This document shows positions 10,654 to 26,817 of a DNA stretch of 29,440 bases, one piece after another. The DNA comes from a virus. Within the stretch, counting starts at the first letter, position 1, and every line of letters begins with the position of its first letter. The stretch lies in IMG/VR virus record IMGVR_UViG_3300034407_001806, positions 1 to 29,440 of that record. The stretch is one strand, 5' to 3'. The notes beneath the pieces are model-generated. The model saw only the letters and a program-made list of their open reading frames with translations, was not told the origin of the DNA and did not search any database. The translations under genes and the position numbers were made by a program.

Positions 10654-11142
10654 ATGGAACCTATATCTACTGCTCTCGCAGGGATAGCCTTATTCAAAAG
10701 TGCTGTTGATGGTATTAAAGGTGCTATCGGCACTGCTAATGATGTTGGTGAGATTGCGGGTTTTATAGACAAGCTCTTTGAGGGAGAAAAACAAGTCCAA
10801 CAACGTCGTAACCAACAGTCTGGCGTTGGTGTTGGTGATCAGTTTGGTGTTACTAATGTTGCTAGAGAAGTAATAGATGCAAAGTTAGCCCAAGAACAAA
10901 TGCGAGAAATAGCCAGTATGATTGATATGCGGTTTGGTCATGGGACATGGAAAAGTATCGTAGATGAAAGAGCTAAACGTATACGCGAAGCTAAAGAAGC
11001 TGAAGCTGAAGCTCGTCGTTTAAAGCGTCAACAAGAAATGGAAACTGCTGAAAATATAAAACAATTTTTCATGATAAGTGGCGCAATTCTCGCAGCAGCA
11101 ATATTTTTCATAGGTATGATTTTTATAATATCAAAACCTTAA
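10654..11142 (+). CDS. C-tail-anchored membrane protein of the lysis region (possible holin or lysis accessory)
   Basis: This encodes 162 aa. Residues 1-45 are Ala/Gly/Ile-rich and weakly hydrophobic. Residues about 103-133 form a highly charged helix rich in Arg, Lys, Glu and Ala, likely a coiled coil. Residues about 138-160 are one strong transmembrane segment, followed by only SKP. Such a protein would sit with its bulk in the cytoplasm. It starts one base after the lysozyme stop, with GGGAGG as its binding site. The position suggests lysis, but a single C-terminal segment is not a typical holin. An ejection-related or regulatory protein is also possible. Its stop codon overlaps the opposing helicase stop codon on the other strand. 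Confidence 0.65.
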   Translation: MEPISTALAGIALFKSAVDGIKGAIGTANDVGEIAGFIDKLFEGEKQVQQRRNQQSGVGVGDQFGVTNVAREVIDAKLAQEQMREIASMIDMRFGHGTWKSIVDERAKRIREAKEAEAEARRLKRQQEMETAENIKQFFMISGAILAAAIFFIGMIFIISKP

Positions 11143-12575
11143 ACAATCCAATCCCTAAAATCCTCAGCAAGAACTTGACTAGCTATATTGATTTTGTTCC
11201 GTAAGGCTAACAGTATTTTATCATCTACTGTTTTATCAGCTACAATATCTATATAAGTAACTTTACTTGTTTGTCCAATACGGTGCGCTCTATCTTCACT
11301 TTGTAACCTTATCTCAAGGTCAAAGTTATTACTATAATATATAACGGTTTTAGCTTCTGTCAGAGTCAGCCCATAACCACCTGTGCGTGGTTGGCCTATA
11401 AAGTATTTAAGAGGGCTGTCTGGATCCTGAAAACGGTTTACAATAGCTTGCCGTTCATCACTCTCTGTTTCCCCATAATATGTAGCTACTGTTTCAGCAC
11501 CATACATTTTAGATATTTCTTGTTCTATTGTTTTTATATCATGTGTGAAGTTAGCCCATATTATAACTTTACCATCTACTTCTTCTAATACAGACATAAG
11601 CTCTGGCAGTTTAGCTGAGTTGAAAGTTTTCATTTCACCATCATCCATTTTTACATGGCCTGAGCATACTTGTTGCAGCCTGAGTAATTGCGTAAGGATA
11701 GTATCAGTAGTTACTGAACCATCTTCTAGTAAGGCAAGAGCAAATGTTTTTAAACTATTGTATACAGACTTTTGTTCTTCAGTGAGTTCTACACTACGCT
11801 TGATATATACTTTATCCGGTAAATCTAAACAGTCTTCTTTCTTTACGCGATAGCTAAAGTTTTCAAGTATACCATTAAGTTTATCTAAATTACGATAGCC
11901 TACTACTTGATTAAAACTATGCGCTCCCATACTACGCCTTTGTACGATGGCATATTCATATTGGAAACTGAAAAAACTACTATGCCCCAATAACCATTCA
12001 TCAAGGAACTCTGCTTGTGTGTACAGATCCATAGGGCTTTTTGTAACAGGTGAGCCTGTAAGTATACGTCTGTACTGAGCTACTTTACCTATCTTTACAA
12101 TACTCTTAGTACGTTTAGCATCTTTGTTTTTTATAGTAGTGCTTTCATCAATAACCATAAGGGAAGGATGTGCATTTAAAAAACGTTCGGCAGCTTCACA
12201 ACCTTTTTTAGTGCTGAAAGCTTCTACATTCATAACAAAAATCTTTAAGTTATCATCTACAACATAAAGTTTATTTTGTTTTTCTAATTGTGTTTTAGTC
12301 TGACTAGGATTCCATAGCACTGTATCATACATGACATGCTCAGGAATATGCGTGGGCAGTTCACCTTGCTCCCAGTTTCGGTATACACCTTTAGGGGCAA
12401 CTATCAATGCACCAGTAATCTCTCCACGGTCGTAGAGGACACACATATTATCAATAAGAACTTTTGATTTACCTGTCCCCATATCCATGAAGTAGGCAAA
12501 TTCTTTCTTATTCCACGATCTTTTTAATGCCTCGAGCTGATGCTCGTAGGGCTTGTATTTAAATTTGTAACGCAT
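11139..12575 (-). CDS. SNF2-family (SF2) DNA-dependent ATPase/helicase
   Basis: This encodes 478 aa from the ATG at 12575, which follows AGAAAGCGG. An upstream in-frame TTG at 12614 would add 13 residues and has no binding site. The motifs in order are a Q-motif-like YEHQ (10-13), Walker A DMGTGKS (31-37), Walker B DEST (143-146), LTGSP (172-176), then a second RecA domain with GGYGLTLTEA (399-408) and the SNF2 motif VI QSEDRAHRIGQ (425-435). DEST and the QxxDRxxRIGQ-type motif mark phage SNF2 proteins rather than UvrB-like or DEAD-box enzymes. It probably translocates on duplex DNA in replication, recombination or displacement of bound proteins. It is the only clear minus-strand gene in the window. 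Confidence 0.92.
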   Translation of the reverse strand: MRYKFKYKPYEHQLEALKRSWNKKEFAYFMDMGTGKSKVLIDNMCVLYDRGEITGALIVAPKGVYRNWEQGELPTHIPEHVMYDTVLWNPSQTKTQLEKQNKLYVVDDNLKIFVMNVEAFSTKKGCEAAERFLNAHPSLMVIDESTTIKNKDAKRTKSIVKIGKVAQYRRILTGSPVTKSPMDLYTQAEFLDEWLLGHSSFFSFQYEYAIVQRRSMGAHSFNQVVGYRNLDKLNGILENFSYRVKKEDCLDLPDKVYIKRSVELTEEQKSVYNSLKTFALALLEDGSVTTDTILTQLLRLQQVCSGHVKMDDGEMKTFNSAKLPELMSVLEEVDGKVIIWANFTHDIKTIEQEISKMYGAETVATYYGETESDERQAIVNRFQDPDSPLKYFIGQPRTGGYGLTLTEAKTVIYYSNNFDLEIRLQSEDRAHRIGQTSKVTYIDIVADKTVDDKILLALRNKINIASQVLAEDFRDWIV

Positions 12576-12614
12576 AACACCGCTTTCTATTGGGTACTTT
12601 TTATAATAGCACAA

Positions 12615-18010: not shown

Positions 18011-19036
18011 ATGGCACATATGGTTGAAACAATGGCTTATGCGGGACAGGTTCCTTGGCATGGGCTTGGCGAAAAAGTTGAGGGCAACCTCACACCTGAG
18101 CAAATGCTCAAAGCTGCAAAGCTAGACTGGACAGTAAGTAAACGTCCGATGTACTTTGCAGATAAACCAAATACATGGGATCTCAATGACCCACGAGGTG
18201 AGGCACAAATGCTCCGCGCTAATGAGCATTATGCAGTAGTTCGTGATTCAGATAACCGTGTATTATCCCACTGTGGTGAAGGGTTTGTTCCTTTCCAGAA
18301 CCATGAAACAATGTCCTTCTTTAAAAAGTTTACTGAAGCAGGGCATATGGAAATGGATACGGCTGGTAGCCTAAGTGATGGTGAGCGTGTCTGGGGCTTG
18401 GCTAAAATCAAGAAGGGTTTCAAGCTGGCTGGCGGTGATGATATAGAGGGTTACTTACTTATGGCTAACAGTCATAAAGTAGGTACTGCTATGACAGTTA
18501 TGTTCACACCTATCCGTGTTGTATGTAACAATACGATTACCCTAGCTCTTAGTCAAGAGGGTATTACTGGTAAGTTCCGCGTATTGCATTTGCAAATGTT
18601 TGACGAGGAAATTATGCAAGCTGCCGAAACAGCACTTGGTATTAGTGGTGAGCAAATGACTAAGTTCCAAGAACAGTCAGAGTTCCTTGCTGGTAAGAAA
18701 GCTACTAAAGAGCAGATAGACCAGTACATTGCTGAGTTATTCCAACCTAAATTACTCATTGAGCGTGGTAAATCTAAGGAAAAAGACCTACCACCTTTGC
18801 ATGAGGAGTTTACCAAAACCTCCCAGTCTATACTGGAAGCTATTGAAACATCTCCTGGACATGATATGCAGTCTGCCAAGGGTACTTGGTGGGGAGCACT
18901 CAATGGTGTGACGTATGTTATGGATCACCAGAAACGTGCTAAGACTCGTGACCATGCACTTAACTCAGCTTGGTTTGGCTCAGCCGCACAGACTAAGCGT
19001 AAAGCTATGGCAAAAGCATTAGAGTTTGCCGCTTAA
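18011..19036 (+). CDS. DUF932 phage/plasmid-like protein
   Basis: This encodes 341 aa from an ATG preceded by TATAGAAAGGAAG. The start MAHMVETMAYAGQVPWHGLG is the hallmark N-terminus of the DUF932 family (phage/plasmid-like TIGR03299 group). Further family-typical segments are LSHCGEGFVPFQNHE (about 76-90), TPIRVVCNNTITLAL (about 166-180) and WWGALNGVTYVMDH near the C-terminus. Length is normal for the family. The biochemical role is not established in general. Members accompany replication or recombination genes in phages and plasmids, as here. A 14-bp stem hairpin follows the stop. Confidence 0.9.
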   Translation: MAHMVETMAYAGQVPWHGLGEKVEGNLTPEQMLKAAKLDWTVSKRPMYFADKPNTWDLNDPRGEAQMLRANEHYAVVRDSDNRVLSHCGEGFVPFQNHETMSFFKKFTEAGHMEMDTAGSLSDGERVWGLAKIKKGFKLAGGDDIEGYLLMANSHKVGTAMTVMFTPIRVVCNNTITLALSQEGITGKFRVLHLQMFDEEIMQAAETALGISGEQMTKFQEQSEFLAGKKATKEQIDQYIAELFQPKLLIERGKSKEKDLPPLHEEFTKTSQSILEAIETSPGHDMQSAKGTWWGALNGVTYVMDHQKRAKTRDHALNSAWFGSAAQTKRKAMAKALEFAA

Positions 19037-19800: not shown

Positions 19801-20697
19801 ATGGAGAACATAGAAAGGTTCTGCTACTGGATAAACGAGCGTCACGCTATTTACCAAAAACGAGCCAAGGGGCAACCAGCCCCTTGGACTAATGACCCTA
19901 TACTACGGGATTATAAGTTTACTAACCCATTCCGTGAGAATGATAGGGTGACTGTTTGGATGCGTCAAAACTGGACTAAGCCAAATGATAACCGCCCACA
20001 TGGGGAAATGATATTTAACTGTTGTATGTTTCGTATGATTGGTACAAGTGAGTTTGCCGAAGAACACGGCTGGGTAGAAGAATTTAACCCTGCTCGCACA
20101 AAAGAACTTATACAAACTAGAATCGACAATGGTTTACGGACATTCACTGGTGCGTATATAATCACTAACCAAGGTCTTAAAGCACCAAAGTCGGAGGTTG
20201 TTGTTGACCATTTCCTTTCGCCGATATGGGAGAATAGAGAAGCGTTGGCGCAGACCGCCGCTGATACGCAATCGCTGGAAGAAGTACACAAAGCGTTGGG
20301 TGCATATAAAGGATGGGGCGGGGGAGGTTTTATGTCTTATGAAGTCGTCACAGACCTCAACTACACCCCTGTCCTCGATCAAGCAAAAGATAAATACAAA
20401 TGGGCAAACGCTGGTCCGGGAGCAAAACGTGGCCTCAACAGGATCCATGATAGACCCCTCACTAAAGCGTTAAGTGCCTATCAAAGTAATAGGGAGATGC
20501 AAGATTTACACAAAGATTCGCACCGTTATCTTGGCGATCACATCCCAACTTTGGCGGTGGATATGCGCTGCATTGAACATAGCTTATGCGAGTGGGATAA
20601 ATATGAGCGTGTACGCCTTGGTCAAGGTACACCTCGTAGTAAGTATAATGGGTTACAAGGTTCTATGCTGGAGGCTGTACATGGGGAGGTGGCGTAG
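19801..20697 (+). CDS. DNA base hypermodification protein of the HMUDK-helical / aGPT-pyrophosphorylase superfamily
   Basis: This encodes 298 aa. Key blocks are FCYWINERHAIYQKR (7-21), PAPWTNDPIL (26-35), YKFTNPFRENDRVTVW (38-53), the Gly-rich hairpin ALGAYKGWGGGGFMSYEV (166-182), NAGPGAKRGLNR (205-216) and DMRCIEHSLCEWDKYERVR (254-272). This order matches the family annotated as 5-hmdU DNA kinase helical domain or alpha-glutamyl/putrescinyl thymine pyrophosphorylase, which has a helix-hairpin-helix DNA-glycosylase-like fold. In characterised phages, such enzymes act on activated 5-hydroxymethyluracil in DNA and install an amine or amino acid. No P-loop kinase domain is fused. It lies in a tight operon with a glycosyltransferase and a radical SAM gene. 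The family is fairly secure; the exact reaction is not. Confidence 0.82.
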   Translation: MENIERFCYWINERHAIYQKRAKGQPAPWTNDPILRDYKFTNPFRENDRVTVWMRQNWTKPNDNRPHGEMIFNCCMFRMIGTSEFAEEHGWVEEFNPARTKELIQTRIDNGLRTFTGAYIITNQGLKAPKSEVVVDHFLSPIWENREALAQTAADTQSLEEVHKALGAYKGWGGGGFMSYEVVTDLNYTPVLDQAKDKYKWANAGPGAKRGLNRIHDRPLTKALSAYQSNREMQDLHKDSHRYLGDHIPTLAVDMRCIEHSLCEWDKYERVRLGQGTPRSKYNGLQGSMLEAVHGEVA

Positions 20698-20699
20698 AT

Positions 20700-20993
20700 A
20701 TGTTGTGTCCAAAATGCAACGGCAAGTCTTCCGTCGTAGAGAGTCGAACTCGAAACAAAACCACTTGGAGGAAGAGACATTGTCCGAAATGCAAATACAA
20801 TTATCGGACATTGGAAGTATTAGAGCCGCTCAAGAGCAAAGAGCCGCCCAAATTGAAACTGGTAAAACCAAAAAAGAAAAGGTTGAAACCAAAGCCAAAA
20901 CCAACGATGTTTGAGTTAGAACATTTAACCGATGAAGAGTTAGAGGCCGCAGTATTAGAAGGCCAAGTAAGATTTGATGAGGATGAGATATGA
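20700..20993 (+). CDS. NrdR-like zinc-ribbon protein without ATP-cone
   Basis: This encodes 97 aa. Residues 1-40 form a zinc ribbon: CPKC (3-6), VVESRTRNKTTWRKRH, CPKC (28-31), then YNYRTLE. This closely follows the N-terminal zinc ribbon of NrdR (CPxC...SRxxxxxxxxRRRxC..C..RFTTFE). The ATP-cone of NrdR is missing. In its place are a Lys/Pro-rich linker (about 47-68) and an acidic helix (about 70-95). It probably binds DNA or a partner protein. Its ATG lies two bases after the upstream stop, and its own stop overlaps the glycosyltransferase start (ATGA). This embeds it in the modification operon, but a role in modification is only inferred. Confidence 0.75.
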   Translation: MLCPKCNGKSSVVESRTRNKTTWRKRHCPKCKYNYRTLEVLEPLKSKEPPKLKLVKPKKKRLKPKPKPTMFELEHLTDEELEAAVLEGQVRFDEDEI

Positions 20994-21790
20994 TACCGAT
21001 ATACATACCAACAAGGGGTAGGATGAATAACCAAGTTACTTGGGATAGTATTGGTCCAGAAGCCCGAGAGCATGCTGTTCTTGTTTGTCCACAGGATGAA
21101 CTGAGCTGGCACGCAAAACAAGGACGCGATTGTATCACGCGCCTCGACAAAAAGGGCGGTGAAATTAAAGGAATCAATAATGTAAGGCAGTTCATATTAG
21201 AACATGCTATGGAGGAAGGACATGATAAAATTATTGTTTTGGATGATGATCTTATATTTGGTCGCCGCATACATGGGCTGGCTCCCAACCTAAGAAAAAC
21301 AAACCAAGAGGAAATGCATGAGTTATGGGAGCGTATGGAATGGCTATTAATGAACCATACCCATGTTGGCCTCAGCCCACGGCAAATGAATGATAAGCAC
21401 TTCCCCGATACAGTTAAATACGGTATGCGACAAAATGCTGTCCATGCAATACGCCCTGAAATTATACATAGTTTGGGTATACGTTATGATGTTATGGATC
21501 TGATGGAGGATTATTACGTTACCCTGAAATTGTTCCAGCTAGGGCATCGCAATGCTGTTATCGTTGATTGGACATGGGATCAGCGGGGTGCTTCTGGTGC
21601 GGCCGGAGGTTGCAGTTCATACCGCAATGCAGAGTTACAAGAAAAAGCAAGCCGAGCATTAGAAGAAGAGTTTCCCATGTATGTAAAAGCAGTCCAGAAA
21701 GAAACTAAAACAGGATGGGAAGGTATGAAAACACGCTGGGATGTTCGTGTACAATGGAGAAAGGCGGCTAAAGATGGCGGCGCAATCTAA
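20990..21790 (+). CDS. TET-associated-type glycosyltransferase (GT-A fold), probable DNA base glycosylating enzyme
   Basis: This encodes 266 aa. Features are the N-terminal nucleotide-binding start IPIYIPTRGR, VLVCPQDE, a GINNVRQFILEHA block (61-73), the metal-binding DDD motif in IIVLDDDLIF (81-90, Asp85-87), and the acceptor-side MEDYYVTLKLFQLG (172-185). A Gly/Ser-rich loop GASGAAGGCSSYRN (200-213) follows. This set matches the TET-associated glycosyltransferase (TAGT) family predicted to add sugars to hydroxymethyl-pyrimidines in phage DNA. A UDP-sugar donor would be usual. No TET/JBP oxygenase is seen here. The hydroxymethyl group may instead come from the ThyA homologue. Its end overlaps the radical SAM start by 17 bp. 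Confidence 0.8.
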   Translation: MIPIYIPTRGRMNNQVTWDSIGPEAREHAVLVCPQDELSWHAKQGRDCITRLDKKGGEIKGINNVRQFILEHAMEEGHDKIIVLDDDLIFGRRIHGLAPNLRKTNQEEMHELWERMEWLLMNHTHVGLSPRQMNDKHFPDTVKYGMRQNAVHAIRPEIIHSLGIRYDVMDLMEDYYVTLKLFQLGHRNAVIVDWTWDQRGASGAAGGCSSYRNAELQEKASRALEEEFPMYVKAVQKETKTGWEGMKTRWDVRVQWRKAAKDGGAI

Positions 21791-22793
21791 CAATTACCAA
21801 GACCCACCAAACTCTATTCAGATAGAATTAGCAGAGGGTTGTAACCTTGCTTGTTCTTTTTGCGGTATACAATCTATACGAGAGAATGGTGCAGATGGTC
21901 CGGATAATACACATGGTAAAGCCTCTGCCCCTTACAAATATCTAAGTATTGAAGCAGCTAGGGCTATATGCGCTCGCATAAAAGAAGCAGGGTGGAACCC
22001 TCGGCTAGAGTTTGCTATGCATGGTGAGCCAACCATGCACCCTTTCTTTATTGATATGATTAGACTGTTCCGTCAAGAGTTACCAAAAACATCTTTAATG
22101 ATGACCAGTAATGGCGGTGGTCTTTTACGCGACACTGAAAAAAGTGTCAACCAACTGATGGAAGCAGGGTTGAATGTACTGTTTCTTGATAATTATGATC
22201 GTATAAAAATAGTGGATAAAATAAAGGAGAGATATAATGGTCCATACCCTGTATACGAATACCCCGCAGAACGTAACGCAAACCCTCACCAACGAAGAAA
22301 AGCTAATGAACATATTATCGTGGTTGGAATGGATCTTACGCTCGCTACAAGTGGAACCCATGCCCAAGTCAGTAACCACGCTGGTAACGCTTTCCATCTA
22401 AACCATGAACAAGATGGTAAACGGTGCGCCAAACCTTTCCGTGAGATGTCTATACGTTGGGATGGTAATGTTGCTGTTTGCTGTAATGATTGGGTGGGAT
22501 GGTATAAGTGTGGCAATGTAATTGATACACCAATGGAAGAAGTATGGCAGGGGGAAGCATTTCATGCAGCGCGAACAAAATTGTATCATGGGCAACGTGA
22601 TTTCGGTCCTTGTAACGGTTGTGACAATACCACTTTGCGTAATGGATTGTTACCTGACCGCATGGGACGCAAGGCATTACCCGAGCCTACTGAGGAAACA
22701 ACGCTTGCAATCAAGGAGGCGTTAAAAGGAGGTACTTATACTAAAAGAGTCAAGAAACATTTTGACTTTATTACTGGTTACTCAGACAGCTAG
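21774..22793 (+). CDS. Radical SAM enzyme with SPASM-like C-terminal cysteines
   Basis: The chosen ATG at 21774 follows AGAAAGGCGG and gives 339 aa. An upstream alternative initiation codon at 21741 lies deeper in the glycosyltransferase gene. The radical SAM cluster motif is CNLACSFC (Cys23, Cys27, Cys30). The SAM-binding MHGEPTMHP (82-90) and the strand end MMTSNGG (109-115) follow. The C-terminal region has Cys218, CC at 236-237, Cys246 and CNGC (280-283) in a SPASM-like arrangement that could hold one or two extra Fe-S clusters. The length is typical of small peptide- or nucleotide-modifying members. It overlaps the glycosyltransferase, so both are likely made together. Radical SAM enzymes are known partners in thymine hypermodification in some phages. 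The substrate here is not known. Confidence 0.88.
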   Translation: MAAQSNNYQDPPNSIQIELAEGCNLACSFCGIQSIRENGADGPDNTHGKASAPYKYLSIEAARAICARIKEAGWNPRLEFAMHGEPTMHPFFIDMIRLFRQELPKTSLMMTSNGGGLLRDTEKSVNQLMEAGLNVLFLDNYDRIKIVDKIKERYNGPYPVYEYPAERNANPHQRRKANEHIIVVGMDLTLATSGTHAQVSNHAGNAFHLNHEQDGKRCAKPFREMSIRWDGNVAVCCNDWVGWYKCGNVIDTPMEEVWQGEAFHAARTKLYHGQRDFGPCNGCDNTTLRNGLLPDRMGRKALPEPTEETTLAIKEALKGGTYTKRVKKHFDFITGYSDS

Positions 22794-22831
22794 AGGGTTG
22801 CTTTTAGCAGTAGGGTAAGGCACATTAACTC

Positions 22832-22849
22832 AGGCCGCTGTAGCGGCTT
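22832..22849 (+). terminator. Short GC-rich hairpin followed by TTTAAAA, possible terminator
   Basis: GCCGC (22834-22838) and GCGGC (22843-22847) pair around a TGTA loop. G22833-T22848 (wobble) and A22832-T22849 extend the stem to 7 bp. The U-run is short (TTT), so termination may be weak. It lies 39 bp after the radical SAM stop and 28 bp before the thymidylate synthase-like gene. It could reduce read-through between the two. Confidence 0.45.
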
Positions 22850-22876
22850 TAAAACCCCATAGAAAGGCGGTTAAAT

Positions 22877-23905
22877 ATGGCATTATATGGCAAAGCACCC
22901 ATGCGAGGGGTGCATACTTTCACCGTAGGAAATGTAAGTGAAGCATTGTTTGTTGTGAAGCAAGCATTAGAAGCTAATGGTGAAGAAGTAGAAACTCGTA
23001 ATGGTAAAGCAATTGAGTTCCGTGAACCATGCGCTATTGTCTACAATAACCCACGCGAACGTGTTCTGTTTTATCCCGAGCGTGATGCAAACCCAATATT
23101 CCATTTTATGGAAAGCCTATGGATGTTAGCAGGGCGTAATGATTTAGAGTGGATACAACGCTATAACGCACGGATGGGTGAGTATAGTGATGATGGTAAA
23201 TTATTACAGGGAGCATATGGTTATCGCTGGCGTAATTATTTCCATCGTGACCAGCTTGATGTAATCACCCATAGATTGATGACACATACAAATGATAGAC
23301 GAGCAGTTCTAGCAATGTGGGATGCTGAAGGTGATTTACGGATGGGTAATAGCTGTAAAGACCACCCTTGTAATACCCATATCTATTTTAGTGTGCGCGA
23401 TAATGTATTGGATATGACCGTATGCAACCGCAGTAATGATATGATTTGGGGTGCATTGGGAGCTAATGCTGTCCATATGTCCATTCTCCAAGAGTATATA
23501 GCCTCACGCATTGGCGCGAGTGTTGGCATCTATACACAGTTTAGTAATAACCTTCATGCCTATACTGAAGTATTAAAAAAGCTAGAAGGTATGCAGCCGG
23601 ATTATGAATCATACAATGTGCGTATGATCAGGCCAGATGCTTTGGTAAATAATATAGAATCATTTGATAAAGAGCTTAGTTGGTTTATGGAGGATGCTGA
23701 AAAGCCAAGAGCATATAAAAACTCCTGTTTCTCTGATTTGGCACAACCTATGCACCGAGTATGGCAAGCATGGAAAGCTAAAGAATTAGCTTTAGCTTTT
23801 GACCATTGTGCAGATATAAAACCCGATGATTGGCATTTAGCCACTTGGGAATGGTTAGAACGTAGGAGAGATAAATGGGCAGAGAAAGCCACGAACAATA
23901 CATGA
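22877..23905 (+). CDS. Thymidylate synthase homologue, candidate dUMP hydroxymethylase
   Basis: This encodes 342 aa. ThyA-fold landmarks are present: the folate-site start with RNGKAIEFREP (41-51), GAYGYRWRN (112-120), the catalytic Cys165 in KDHPCNTHIYF, CNRSNDMIWGALGANAVH (183-200) and NNLHAYTEV (224-232), equivalent to the THLYSNH block. The residue matching E. coli Asn177, which selects uracil over cytosine, is Asn197. That points to dUMP rather than dCMP, where T4 hydroxymethylase has Asp. The product is either dTMP or 5-hydroxymethyl-dUMP. Divergence from ThyA and the hypermodification neighbours favour the latter. There is a long C-terminal extension (about 235-342). It starts after CATAGAAAGGCGG and overlaps the next gene by 31 bp. 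Confidence 0.82.
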   Translation: MALYGKAPMRGVHTFTVGNVSEALFVVKQALEANGEEVETRNGKAIEFREPCAIVYNNPRERVLFYPERDANPIFHFMESLWMLAGRNDLEWIQRYNARMGEYSDDGKLLQGAYGYRWRNYFHRDQLDVITHRLMTHTNDRRAVLAMWDAEGDLRMGNSCKDHPCNTHIYFSVRDNVLDMTVCNRSNDMIWGALGANAVHMSILQEYIASRIGASVGIYTQFSNNLHAYTEVLKKLEGMQPDYESYNVRMIRPDALVNNIESFDKELSWFMEDAEKPRAYKNSCFSDLAQPMHRVWQAWKAKELALAFDHCADIKPDDWHLATWEWLERRRDKWAEKATNNT

Positions 23906-24273: not shown

Positions 24274-24439
24274 CGAAAAGTTAGATAAAGAAGTATTGGC
24301 TGAATGTGAGTGCGGAAGGGAAAAGAAAGTTATTACCTTCCGTAAACTCAAAAACAAATGGCCTCATTGTTCTAAATGTAACCAACCCATGATGGTAAAG
24401 GTAAAAGATGCAATTCCCACTATTCACACCACCGACTGA
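24266..24439 (+). CDS. 57-aa zinc-ribbon protein overlapping both neighbours
   Basis: This short gene starts at the ATG at 24266, inside the end of the previous gene (8-bp overlap), with GAGGGA just upstream. It stops at 24437-24439, 32 bp inside the polymerase gene. The product begins MDNEKLDKEVLAECECGREK and has two cysteine pairs, CEC (14-16) and CSKC (35-38), separated by a basic stretch (KVITFRKLKNKWPH). That is a plausible four-Cys zinc ribbon. Its composition is that of a real protein rather than a chance frame. The overlaps on both sides fit phage translational coupling. A role in replication or DNA binding is possible. I recognise no named family. Confidence 0.62.
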   Translation: MDNEKLDKEVLAECECGREKKVITFRKLKNKWPHCSKCNQPMMVKVKDAIPTIHTTD

Positions 24440-26327
24440 ATGGGTAATGCCAGATGGCTATCCTGATTTATCAGAAGCTAGGGAAGTATCTATTGACCTA
24501 GAAACTTGTGACCCTAACCTTACATCTCGTGGTAGTGGATGGCCTCGTAAAGATGGTTATGTAATTGGCATCGCGGTAGCTGTAGATGGGGCTGCTTGGT
24601 ACTTCCCTATCCGGCATGATAATGGTAGTAACCTTGATGCTAAACAAACACTCCGTTGGTTAGCTGATGTATGCTCAGTTGAGCGTGATTATATTATGCA
24701 TAATGCTATGTATGACCTTGGATGGTTATGGGCAGAAGGTATAGAAGTAAAAGGCCGTATTGTAGATACAATGATTGTAGCTGCACTTATTGATGAAAAT
24801 AGGTTTAGTTATGCCCTCAATGCTCTAGGCCGTGATTACTTGAATGAGCGTAAGAGTGAAAAAGACTTATACGAAGCAGCTAACTCTTTTGGTGTAAATG
24901 CTAAGAGTGAAATGTGGAAGCTCCCTGCTCATTTTGTGGGTGCATATGCTGAACAGGATGCTGCGCTTACCCTGAAGCTGTGGCAGTTCTTTAAAGGTGT
25001 GATAATTAAAGAAGATGTAGCAGATATATTTGACCTTGAATTACAAGTCCTCAAAGTTGTATTTGATATGCGTAAGAAAGGTGTGCGGGTAGACCTAGAA
25101 AAAGCTGAAGAGTTAAAGGTATATCTGCAAAGGGAAGAGGAAAAAGTATTACAAGAATCAGGCGGCACAGATATTGATATATGGGCAGCGGCAAGTATCG
25201 CTAAAGCATTTGATGCAAAAGGATTGACTTACCCTAAAACGCCCAAATCAGGCCAGCCTAGCTTCACTAAGAATTTTCTAGTTAACCATGCCCATGCGCT
25301 TCCTCAGGCTGTGGTTCGAGCTCGTGAGCTGAATAAAGCTAGAACTACTTTTATCGATACTATTATAAAACACCAGCATAATGGTCGTATCCATGCGGAA
25401 GCACATAGCCTCCGTAGTGATGATGGTGGGACAGTTACAGGTCGGTTTAGTTATAGCAATCCTAATCTACAACAAGTACCCGCAAGGAATGCTGAGATTG
25501 GTCCTATGATACGCGGATTGTTCTTACCCGAAGAAGGTGAACTGTGGGGTGCTTTTGATTATAGTAGCCAAGAACCACGGCTCGTCGTCCATTATTCTAG
25601 CCTTCTTAAACTGACTGGCGCACAAGAGTTTGCTGACCAGTACAATGTAGATGCTACTACAGATTTCCACCAGATGGCTGCCGATATAGTTGGAGTACCT
25701 CGTAAACAAGCAAAAGATATTAACCTTGGTTTGTTTTATGGGATGGGTAAGAATAAACTGGCAGAACAATTAGGACTTGAGTATGAGGATGCTAAAGATT
25801 TATTTAAAGAGTATCATGGTAAAGTCCCCTTTGTTCAACAGCTTGCTGATTATGTAGTTAATCGTGCTTCTAATAAAGGTGTTATCCGTACCCTGCTTGG
25901 TCGTAAATGTAGGTTTGATAAATGGGAACCAAATGCTTATGGATTGTATAAACCACAGACATATGAAGATGCATATGCTGAGCATGGTCCAGCTATCAAA
26001 CGTGCCTTCACATATAAAGCCCTTAACAGATTGATACAGGGTAGTGCTGCCGACCAAACAAAAGCTGCGATGGTAGCTTTACATAAAGAAGGTATAACAC
26101 CATTGATACAAGTGCATGATGAATTAGATATATCAGTAGCTGAACCAGAAACAGCCTCTGTAATACAAGAGATTATGGAGACTTGTGTAGATATGCAAAT
26201 ACCAAGTGTGGTAGATGCAGAGTTTGGTCCGAGTTGGGGCGAAGCAAAAAAGACATTTAGTGATAAGCCTTGGTCAAGAGGGGTAAAAGATGGCGGGACA
26301 CCAATGCCAGACAATACCAAACATTAA
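24408..26327 (+). CDS. polA: Family A DNA polymerase with 3'-5' exonuclease; Leu at the Phe762-equivalent position
   Basis: This encodes 639 aa, the phage replicative polymerase. The N-terminal 3'-5' exonuclease has all motifs: SIDLET (Asp30, Glu32), HNAMYDLGWL (Asp103) and YAEQD (Tyr180, Asp184). The polymerase has motif A AFDYSSQEPRL (Asp384), motif B RKQAKDINLGLFYGMG (Arg432, Lys436, Leu440, Tyr444) and motif C QVHDELD (Asp571, Glu572). There is no 5'-3' exonuclease domain. Leu440 replaces the Phe found at position 762 in E. coli Pol I. In viral surveys, this substitution has been linked to slower, more accurate copying and possibly a temperate or less aggressive lifestyle. The start lies inside the zinc-ribbon gene. 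The end overlaps the HD gene by 38 bp. Confidence 0.96.
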   Translation: MQFPLFTPPTEWVMPDGYPDLSEAREVSIDLETCDPNLTSRGSGWPRKDGYVIGIAVAVDGAAWYFPIRHDNGSNLDAKQTLRWLADVCSVERDYIMHNAMYDLGWLWAEGIEVKGRIVDTMIVAALIDENRFSYALNALGRDYLNERKSEKDLYEAANSFGVNAKSEMWKLPAHFVGAYAEQDAALTLKLWQFFKGVIIKEDVADIFDLELQVLKVVFDMRKKGVRVDLEKAEELKVYLQREEEKVLQESGGTDIDIWAAASIAKAFDAKGLTYPKTPKSGQPSFTKNFLVNHAHALPQAVVRARELNKARTTFIDTIIKHQHNGRIHAEAHSLRSDDGGTVTGRFSYSNPNLQQVPARNAEIGPMIRGLFLPEEGELWGAFDYSSQEPRLVVHYSSLLKLTGAQEFADQYNVDATTDFHQMAADIVGVPRKQAKDINLGLFYGMGKNKLAEQLGLEYEDAKDLFKEYHGKVPFVQQLADYVVNRASNKGVIRTLLGRKCRFDKWEPNAYGLYKPQTYEDAYAEHGPAIKRAFTYKALNRLIQGSAADQTKAAMVALHKEGITPLIQVHDELDISVAEPETASVIQEIMETCVDMQIPSVVDAEFGPSWGEAKKTFSDKPWSRGVKDGGTPMPDNTKH

Positions 26328-26817
26328 AACTTTGACAACAGCATGGGATGCTCAGTTTCTATTGCGCTTCCATACAGTTGCCATGCAAGCAGAAAGACAG
26401 ACAGTGGGAGCACATTCATACGCAGTAAGTATATTGATAGACCAACTCTGGCCTGATAGTACAAAACAACTCATCATGGCTTCATTGTATCATGATGTGC
26501 CTGAATTAATACTTGGCGATATACCAGCTACAGCTAAATGGTCTTATCCTGAAGTACAGAAAGCATTTGAAGATGCTGAGAAAAAAGTGTTTGAAGACCT
26601 TGGATTGATCTTTGTTCTTACGGCAGAAGAAAAGAATAGATTGAAAATGGCCGATATGCTTGAACTCGTACTCTATTCTAATCGCCATACAAATCAAAGT
26701 GAACAAATGAAAGTGATCATGCATACAGGTATCAATTTTTTGTATAAAAGGTTTTCTGATTTACCTGATTTTGAGCCAGTAAATAAAGTGCTAACTCATT
26801 ATAATTTAAGCGTTTGA
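26290..26817 (+). CDS. HD-domain 5'-deoxynucleotidase-like phosphohydrolase (YfbR type)
   Basis: This encodes 175 aa. Metal-binding and catalytic residues of the HD family are seen: Arg26/His28 (LLRFHT), His42 in TVGAHSYAV, His68-Asp69 with Glu72 in LYHDVPELILGD (67-77), and Asp122 in KMADMLEL. This spacing is that of YfbR-like enzymes, which remove phosphate from dNMPs. Such an enzyme could drain one canonical nucleotide from the pool, for example dTMP, in a phage that uses a modified pyrimidine. The related dATP phosphohydrolase DatZ has a similar size and also sits near PolA genes in diaminopurine phages. No PurZ is seen here. The 38-bp overlap with polA points to shared expression. Confidence 0.85.
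   Translation: MAGHQCQTIPNIKTLTTAWDAQFLLRFHTVAMQAERQTVGAHSYAVSILIDQLWPDSTKQLIMASLYHDVPELILGDIPATAKWSYPEVQKAFEDAEKKVFEDLGLIFVLTAEEKNRLKMADMLELVLYSNRHTNQSEQMKVIMHTGINFLYKRFSDLPDFEPVNKVLTHYNLSV

Follow-up and report, generated by a model that had tools for sequence, protein, structure and literature searches.

Introduction

Characterized thymidine hypermodification pathways open with a DNA kinase. The DNA of phage M6 bears a modified thymidine, 5-aminoethyl-deoxyuridine (5-aminoethyl-dU; Flodman 2019, PMC6449724). In T6-like phages, a glycosyltransferase of the TAGT family is credited with the addition of a second glucose to 5-hydroxymethylcytosine (5-hmC) (PMC13390438). Pelagiphages of the HTVC023P type carry the genes of TS (ThyA), aG/PT-PPlase1 (HMUDK_hel), a nucleotidase and a glucosyltransferase (TAGT) together; the glucosyltransferase may broaden the system, and the available part of that account proposes no kinase-free mechanism (PMC9599517). 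Here, a cassette of five open reading frames (ORFs) was analyzed, all located on the plus strand at positions 19801–23905 of a viral IMG/VR fragment (IMGVR_UViG_3300034407_001806; 29,440 bp, class linear), the whole of which is referred to as the window. It is moderately likely that this cassette hypermodifies thymidine by a kinase-free route, and its product is quite likely a glycosylated 5-hydroxymethyluracil (5-hmU). No statement of a kinase-free route, of an exclusion between kinase and TAGT or of a link to a radical S-adenosylmethionine (SAM) enzyme was found in the open-licence literature.

Results

Gene Content and Conservation of the Cassette

The five ORFs matched the families proposed for them in an earlier, sequence-only reading of the window. 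First, HMUDK_hel (19801..20697; 298 aa) matched PF18723 with an E-value of 7e-53. The family had been named correctly, but the label "aGPT-pyrophosphorylase" is outdated: Pfam now describes this family, formerly aGPT-Pplase1, as the helical domain of 5-hydroxymethyl-deoxyuridine (5-hmdU) DNA kinase. The window protein lacks the kinase domain. Second, a NrdR-like zinc ribbon follows as an accessory gene (20700..20993; 97 aa; PF22811, 35 bits, cut-off 27.2). Third, the TAGT-family glycosyltransferase (20990..21790; 266 aa) matched PF20691 (E 3e-18; 66.9 bits, cut-off 27.5) and phrog_842 (E 5e-45), which is labeled "beta-glucosyl-HMC-alpha-glucosyltransferase". Fourth, 21774..22793 encodes a radical SAM enzyme whose auxiliary cluster domain is BtrN-like (PF04055 Radical_SAM, PF13186 SPASM). 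Its ORF comprises 350 aa if translation starts at the first ATG (21741) and 339 aa if it starts at the ATG of 21774; the latter start is nearer to the onset of conserved sequence and yields the 17-bp overlap with TAGT reported previously. Fifth, the ThyA-family enzyme, a putative dUMP hydroxymethylase, is encoded at 22877..23905 (342 aa; PF00303 Thymidylat_synt; phrog_5131, E 7e-105). The description of the genes as lying almost without gaps fails once, since 83 nt separate the radical SAM and ThyA genes. A terminator in this gap was rejected, as the hairpin is small and its folding energy is not better than that of shuffled sequence.

Relatives were retrieved with radical SAM and TAGT as queries, and 15 contigs clustered with the window (n = 16). 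HMUDK_hel, TAGT, radical SAM, ThyA, a 132-aa protein, the polymerase and a phosphohydrolase-like protein (the last in 15/16) were each present in 15 or 16 of the 16 contigs, and where one of these genes was missing, its absence fell at a contig end. HMUDK_hel was found in every contig of the clade that extends to its position. The order DUF932-HMUDK_hel-TAGT-rSAM-ThyA-X-polA was kept. Since it is conserved across 16 contigs, the set is far beyond chance. The gene combination is therefore not unique to the window phage, as the same set occurs across relatives and the cassette recurs in many uncultured phages. Four core genes of the proposed five-gene set occurred together in essentially all relatives. 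The zinc ribbon, present in only 6/16 contigs, was rejected as a core part and probably stands outside the core system; with 23.8 bits against TIGR00244 (cut-off 124.65), the 97-aa protein is not a full-length NrdR with an ATP cone.

Three relatives, G008, G006 and G004, look complete because their contig ends overlap (126 bp at 100%, 105 bp at 100% and 370 bp at 96.5%, respectively). The 69-kb contig G002 (L060–L063) was dropped as a complete genome, since its ends match at 77–81% only; it holds a structural gene block in two copies of 77–81% identity and is possibly a chimera.

Absence of the Kinase and Its Exclusion from TAGT Loci

The sequence-only reading had recognized neither a kinase nor TET in the window. 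This held in the wider check, in which 19 whole clade records, the window plus 18 relatives, were searched, with M6 and Sonora as positive controls. The 5-hmdU kinase (PF18748) was found in 0/19 records, and the amino acid:DNA transferase (ADDT; PF18724) gave no match above the cut-off, although M6 and Sonora gave the expected matches for both; PF12851 Tet_JBP was likewise found in 0/19. The 18 relatives without kinase, ADDT and TET/JBP include the three complete-looking contigs.

A scan led by the M6 HMUDK_hel was then evaluated, in which the best 80 of 585 loci were kept and scored with hidden Markov models built for this analysis. Among these 80 loci, the kinase was present in 32 and TAGT in 37; none carried both and 11 carried neither. 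ADDT was found in 23/32 kinase loci and in 0/37 TAGT loci, and never apart from the kinase. A TAGT-led scan, supplemented by two loci obtained via the LuckyBarnes HMUDK_hel, yielded 48 loci from beyond the window clade; 39 contained HMUDK_hel, 40 ThyA and 4 TET. The four TET-bearing loci all lacked HMUDK_hel and ThyA. The sequence-only reading had described TAGT-type enzymes as usually discussed with TET/JBP oxygenases; in these loci TAGT is not mainly a TET partner.

The fusion of kinase and HMUDK_hel in one 636-aa protein in Goe26, and their adjacency in M6, Sonora and Pam3, indicate that HMUDK_hel is normally a partner of the kinase. Both observations would suit a kinase-dependent route, in which a distant or host kinase phosphorylates 5-hmU as in M6, HMUDK_hel serves as its helical subunit, and TAGT and the radical SAM enzyme act on the phospho-intermediate. 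The kinase family is also divergent, the Lucjan kinase falling under the Pfam cut-off. This route is nevertheless very unlikely: PF18748 was absent from 67 records, i.e., the 19 of the clade and the whole records of the 48 TAGT- or HMUDK_hel-bearing loci outside it. Moreover, a Walker A motif search of G002, G004 and G008 gave no good candidate besides a helicase and a structural-type gene, and kinase and TAGT never shared a locus.

On a tree of 48 HMUDK_hel rows, the kinase label changed at least three times and that for radical SAM six times or more, which suggests that HMUDK_hel has probably exchanged its partners repeatedly. Two long branches, Goe26 and the ViI type, meet on this tree, and their join is unsure.

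Further combinations were observed in loci with HMUDK_hel and ThyA that lack kinase and TAGT: L222 and L254 carry GT-B enzymes, L200 carries PIG-L and a GT4-like gene, and L216 carries PIG-L, APS kinase and a sulfotransferase-like gene. A distant HMUDK_hel lineage (25–31% identical) resides on bacteria-assigned contigs (L283–L348), e.g., the Rubrobacter marinus chromosome (L286); it mostly lacks kinase, TAGT and ADDT, and a ThyA-like gene adjoins some members. HMUDK_hel lies near a Dam-type methylase gene in L263 and near a C5-cytosine methylase gene in L223, with no ThyA of the cassette family in either stretch.

HMUDK_hel as a Candidate Base-Presenting Partner

The window HMUDK_hel is 35–39% identical to M6 gp055 and its Sonora counterpart, and its AlphaFold model is all helical, with a predicted local distance difference test (pLDDT) score of 91.7. 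As HMUDK_hel appears to be exchanged between kinase and glycosyltransferase, recognition or presentation of the base is the simplest reading of its role. We give an even chance to HMUDK_hel being the base-presenting partner of TAGT. Two other assignments were tried and rejected. A DNA glycosylase fold had only weak Foldseek matches, and no Pfam HhH match was present in 32 members; a relation to P-loop kinases reached an hhalign probability of 0.1%.

ThyA and the Target Base

The window ThyA is 43% identical to M6 gp058, and this kinship is the basis on which it is proposed as a hydroxymethylase. Two residues were kept in 74/74 ThyA homologues: the catalytic Cys, and Asn at the position that discriminates dUMP from dCMP. 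As known from thymidylate synthase and dCMP hydroxymethylase, Asn at this position marks the use of dUMP. The dUMP-type Asn and the kinship with the M6 enzyme favor thymine over cytosine as the target base. The cassette combines a dUMP-type phage ThyA with HMUDK_hel, the two features by which 5-hmdU-based thymidine hypermodification was assessed here.

If the ThyA-like enzyme were instead a dCMP hydroxymethylase, TAGT would glycosylate 5-hmC as in T-even phages. The top sequence match of the window ThyA in the PDB is indeed a CMP hydroxymethylase, and the T6-like TAGT is credited with action on glucosylated 5-hmC (PMC13390438). Such a cytosine route is highly improbable in view of the invariant Asn, of the modified thymidine in M6, the nearest characterized kin (PMC6449724), and of the presence of HMUDK_hel, a protein of thymidine systems, in 39/48 TAGT loci.

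TAGT and the Radical SAM Enzyme

The acidic GT-A-like motif LDDDL is kept in the window TAGT, with D85 and D86 invariant in an alignment with LuckyBarnes, ctUhy936 and DLP_6; both this motif and the profile match place the protein in the TAGT family (PF20691). In one locus, L148, a single ORF of 581 aa encodes a TAGT-radical SAM fusion.

When loci were sought with the radical SAM protein, 45 were obtained beyond the clade; HMUDK_hel was present in 41, ThyA in 42, TAGT in 22 and the kinase in none. In a Foldseek search of the predicted radical SAM structure against the PDB, BtrN was the best match (E 1.4e-12; TM-score 0.79 by target length), followed by SpeY. BlsE, AbmM and DesII ranked lower, and the list also held the peptide-modifying enzymes anSME and SuiB. 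As in BtrN-like enzymes, the predicted model combines a radical SAM core with an auxiliary cluster fold. Eight Cys were invariant in 16 sequences (numbering from the 21741 start): C34, C38 and C41 of the CxxxCxxC motif, C229, C247, C248, C291 and C294. Three of them could bind the radical SAM cluster and four one auxiliary cluster, leaving one spare. In NeoN, Cys249 is the hydrogen source in epimerization (PMC10991966), and HygY is an epimerase that was made a dehydrogenase by a one-cysteine change, according to a title cited therein. With this precedent, the spare invariant Cys of the C247/C248 pair makes epimerization as plausible as oxidation, and judged by the cysteine count the enzyme may be an epimerase rather than a dehydrogenase. 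That it acts on a sugar is rated slightly better than even.

Neighboring Genes

Tail and structural genes, an SNF2-type helicase, a primase and a UvrD-type helicase lie 5' of the cassette. A DUF932 protein (18011–19036) was present 5' of the cassette in every relative whose contig extends there, and a solitary minus-strand SNF2/DpdE/ZorD-like helicase gene amid plus-strand genes (11139–12614) was kept in the clade. On the 3' side, a family A DNA polymerase adjoins the cassette (24408..26327, plus strand; PF00476, E 1e-60), followed by a phosphohydrolase-like gene on the same strand (26290..26817; phrog_6047, E 1e-34; phrog_7076 dATP triphosphohydrolase, E 1e-14). The phosphohydrolase-like protein possibly reduces the normal dTTP/dTMP pool.

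Discussion

The proposed pathway would begin with the formation of 5-hydroxymethyl-dUMP by the ThyA-family enzyme, and the phage polymerase would put the 5-hydroxymethyl nucleotide into DNA in place of thymidine. HMUDK_hel, whose relatives act with a P-loop DNA kinase, would recognize 5-hmU in DNA and present it to TAGT as its catalytic partner, which would move a sugar straight onto the hydroxymethyl group. Phosphorylation would not be needed, since TAGT would glycosylate the hydroxymethyl group directly. The BtrN-like radical SAM enzyme would then alter the DNA-bound sugar, either dehydrogenating it to a keto sugar or epimerizing it, and the resulting base may shield the phage DNA against restriction. 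The sequence-only reading had anticipated thymine hypermodification from 5-hmdU via TAGT and radical SAM, which is supported here; its amine-bearing product is not. An amine was set aside because ADDT is absent and the window radical SAM enzyme, which is BtrN-like, is not detectably related to that of M6.

Several findings weigh against this proposal. The Fisher value for the exclusion between kinase and TAGT (p 2.7e-13) overstates independence because the loci are related by descent. The conserved ThyA residues do not separate a hydroxymethylase from an ordinary thymidylate synthase. Foldseek gave no significant PDB match for the HMUDK_hel model, the top match being endonuclease III-3 with an E-value of 1.3, while comparison of its profile with that of the DNA transferase family ADDT gave a weak link over 105 columns (hhalign E 0.0005; probability 33%). 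HMUDK_hel may thus itself be an enzyme. If it were the catalytic transferase, TAGT would merely extend a sugar chain, in line with the second glucose attached by TAGT in T6-like phages. This is quite unlikely, as the catalytic part in Goe26 is the P-loop domain and TAGT is the sole recognized sugar transferase in most such loci.

The radical SAM enzyme raises further difficulties. Its model has a mean pLDDT of 74.9, with weak stretches. About half of the radical SAM loci outside the clade lack a recognized TAGT, so the enzyme is not tied exclusively to TAGT. In such loci, the adjacent slot can hold a GT-B enzyme, as in L414, a weak TAGT, as in L409, or a protein of a family of about 340 aa. 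This family, with the motif RxDFDK and no convincing Pfam match, was observed near radical SAM in L381, L382, L384, L388, L402, L408 and L427. The loci without TAGT would suit a reading in which the radical SAM enzyme acts elsewhere (on the base linker, a protein or a free nucleotide sugar), with a simple 5-hmU glycoside as the product. The optional nature of the gene, with its frequent changes on the HMUDK_hel tree, points the same way, as do viperin-like matches to its core, which were too weak for a defence-system reading, now rejected. Action elsewhere is rather unlikely given the fusion in L148, the presence of HMUDK_hel and ThyA in nearly all radical SAM loci (41/45 and 42/45) and the nearest structures, which work on sugars or cyclitols.

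Direct glycosylation of 5-hmU, if true, would represent a widespread second branch of thymidine hypermodification, change phage genome annotation and explain many kinase-less HMUDK_hel genes, and the editing of a DNA-borne sugar by a radical enzyme would be new nucleic acid chemistry. Still broader, and held only tentatively at somewhat below an even chance, is the idea that HMUDK_hel is a general module for recognition of 5-hmU in DNA, which has several times taken a new catalytic partner, be it the kinase, TAGT, another glycosyltransferase or perhaps a sulfotransferase, with the radical SAM enzyme here editing the DNA-attached sugar to give an undescribed keto- or epi-sugar thymine. Since the core set is present in a cultured phage, LuckyBarnes, the identity of its base is testable at once, and its recurrence in many uncultured phages makes an overlooked route of DNA disguise testable.

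Comparison with Known Systems

M6 resembles the window in that a ThyA-family enzyme, HMUDK_hel, a radical SAM gene and a family A polymerase lie in one neighborhood. Unlike the window, M6 carries the 5-hmdU kinase, ADDT, a PALP enzyme and Nmad5 in the same gene run; no TAGT was found in the M6 stretch, and its radical SAM enzyme has no detectable relation to that of the window. The gene neighborhoods of Sonora and Pam3 resemble that of M6, and the polymerase adjoins the cassette in all three phages as well as in the window. The Brevibacterium phage LuckyBarnes is similar to the window, with ThyA-TAGT-TAGT-HMUDK_hel in a row and no kinase in its genome, but differs by having no radical SAM gene of the cassette family within the 16.8-kb stretch scanned. 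A radical SAM enzyme also distinguishes the window cassette from the pelagiphage set, for which the paper mentions none (PMC9599517). The TET/JBP-TAGT systems and the 5-hmC glycosylation of T6-like phages share the TAGT family with the window, whereas their 5-hydroxymethyl base derives from TET or from dCMP hydroxymethylase. BtrN and SpeY, two dehydrogenases of the radical SAM type from antibiotic biosynthesis, resemble the window radical SAM enzyme in predicted fold and in the auxiliary cluster domain; they use a free cyclitol or sugar, whereas the putative substrate of the window enzyme is a sugar on DNA.

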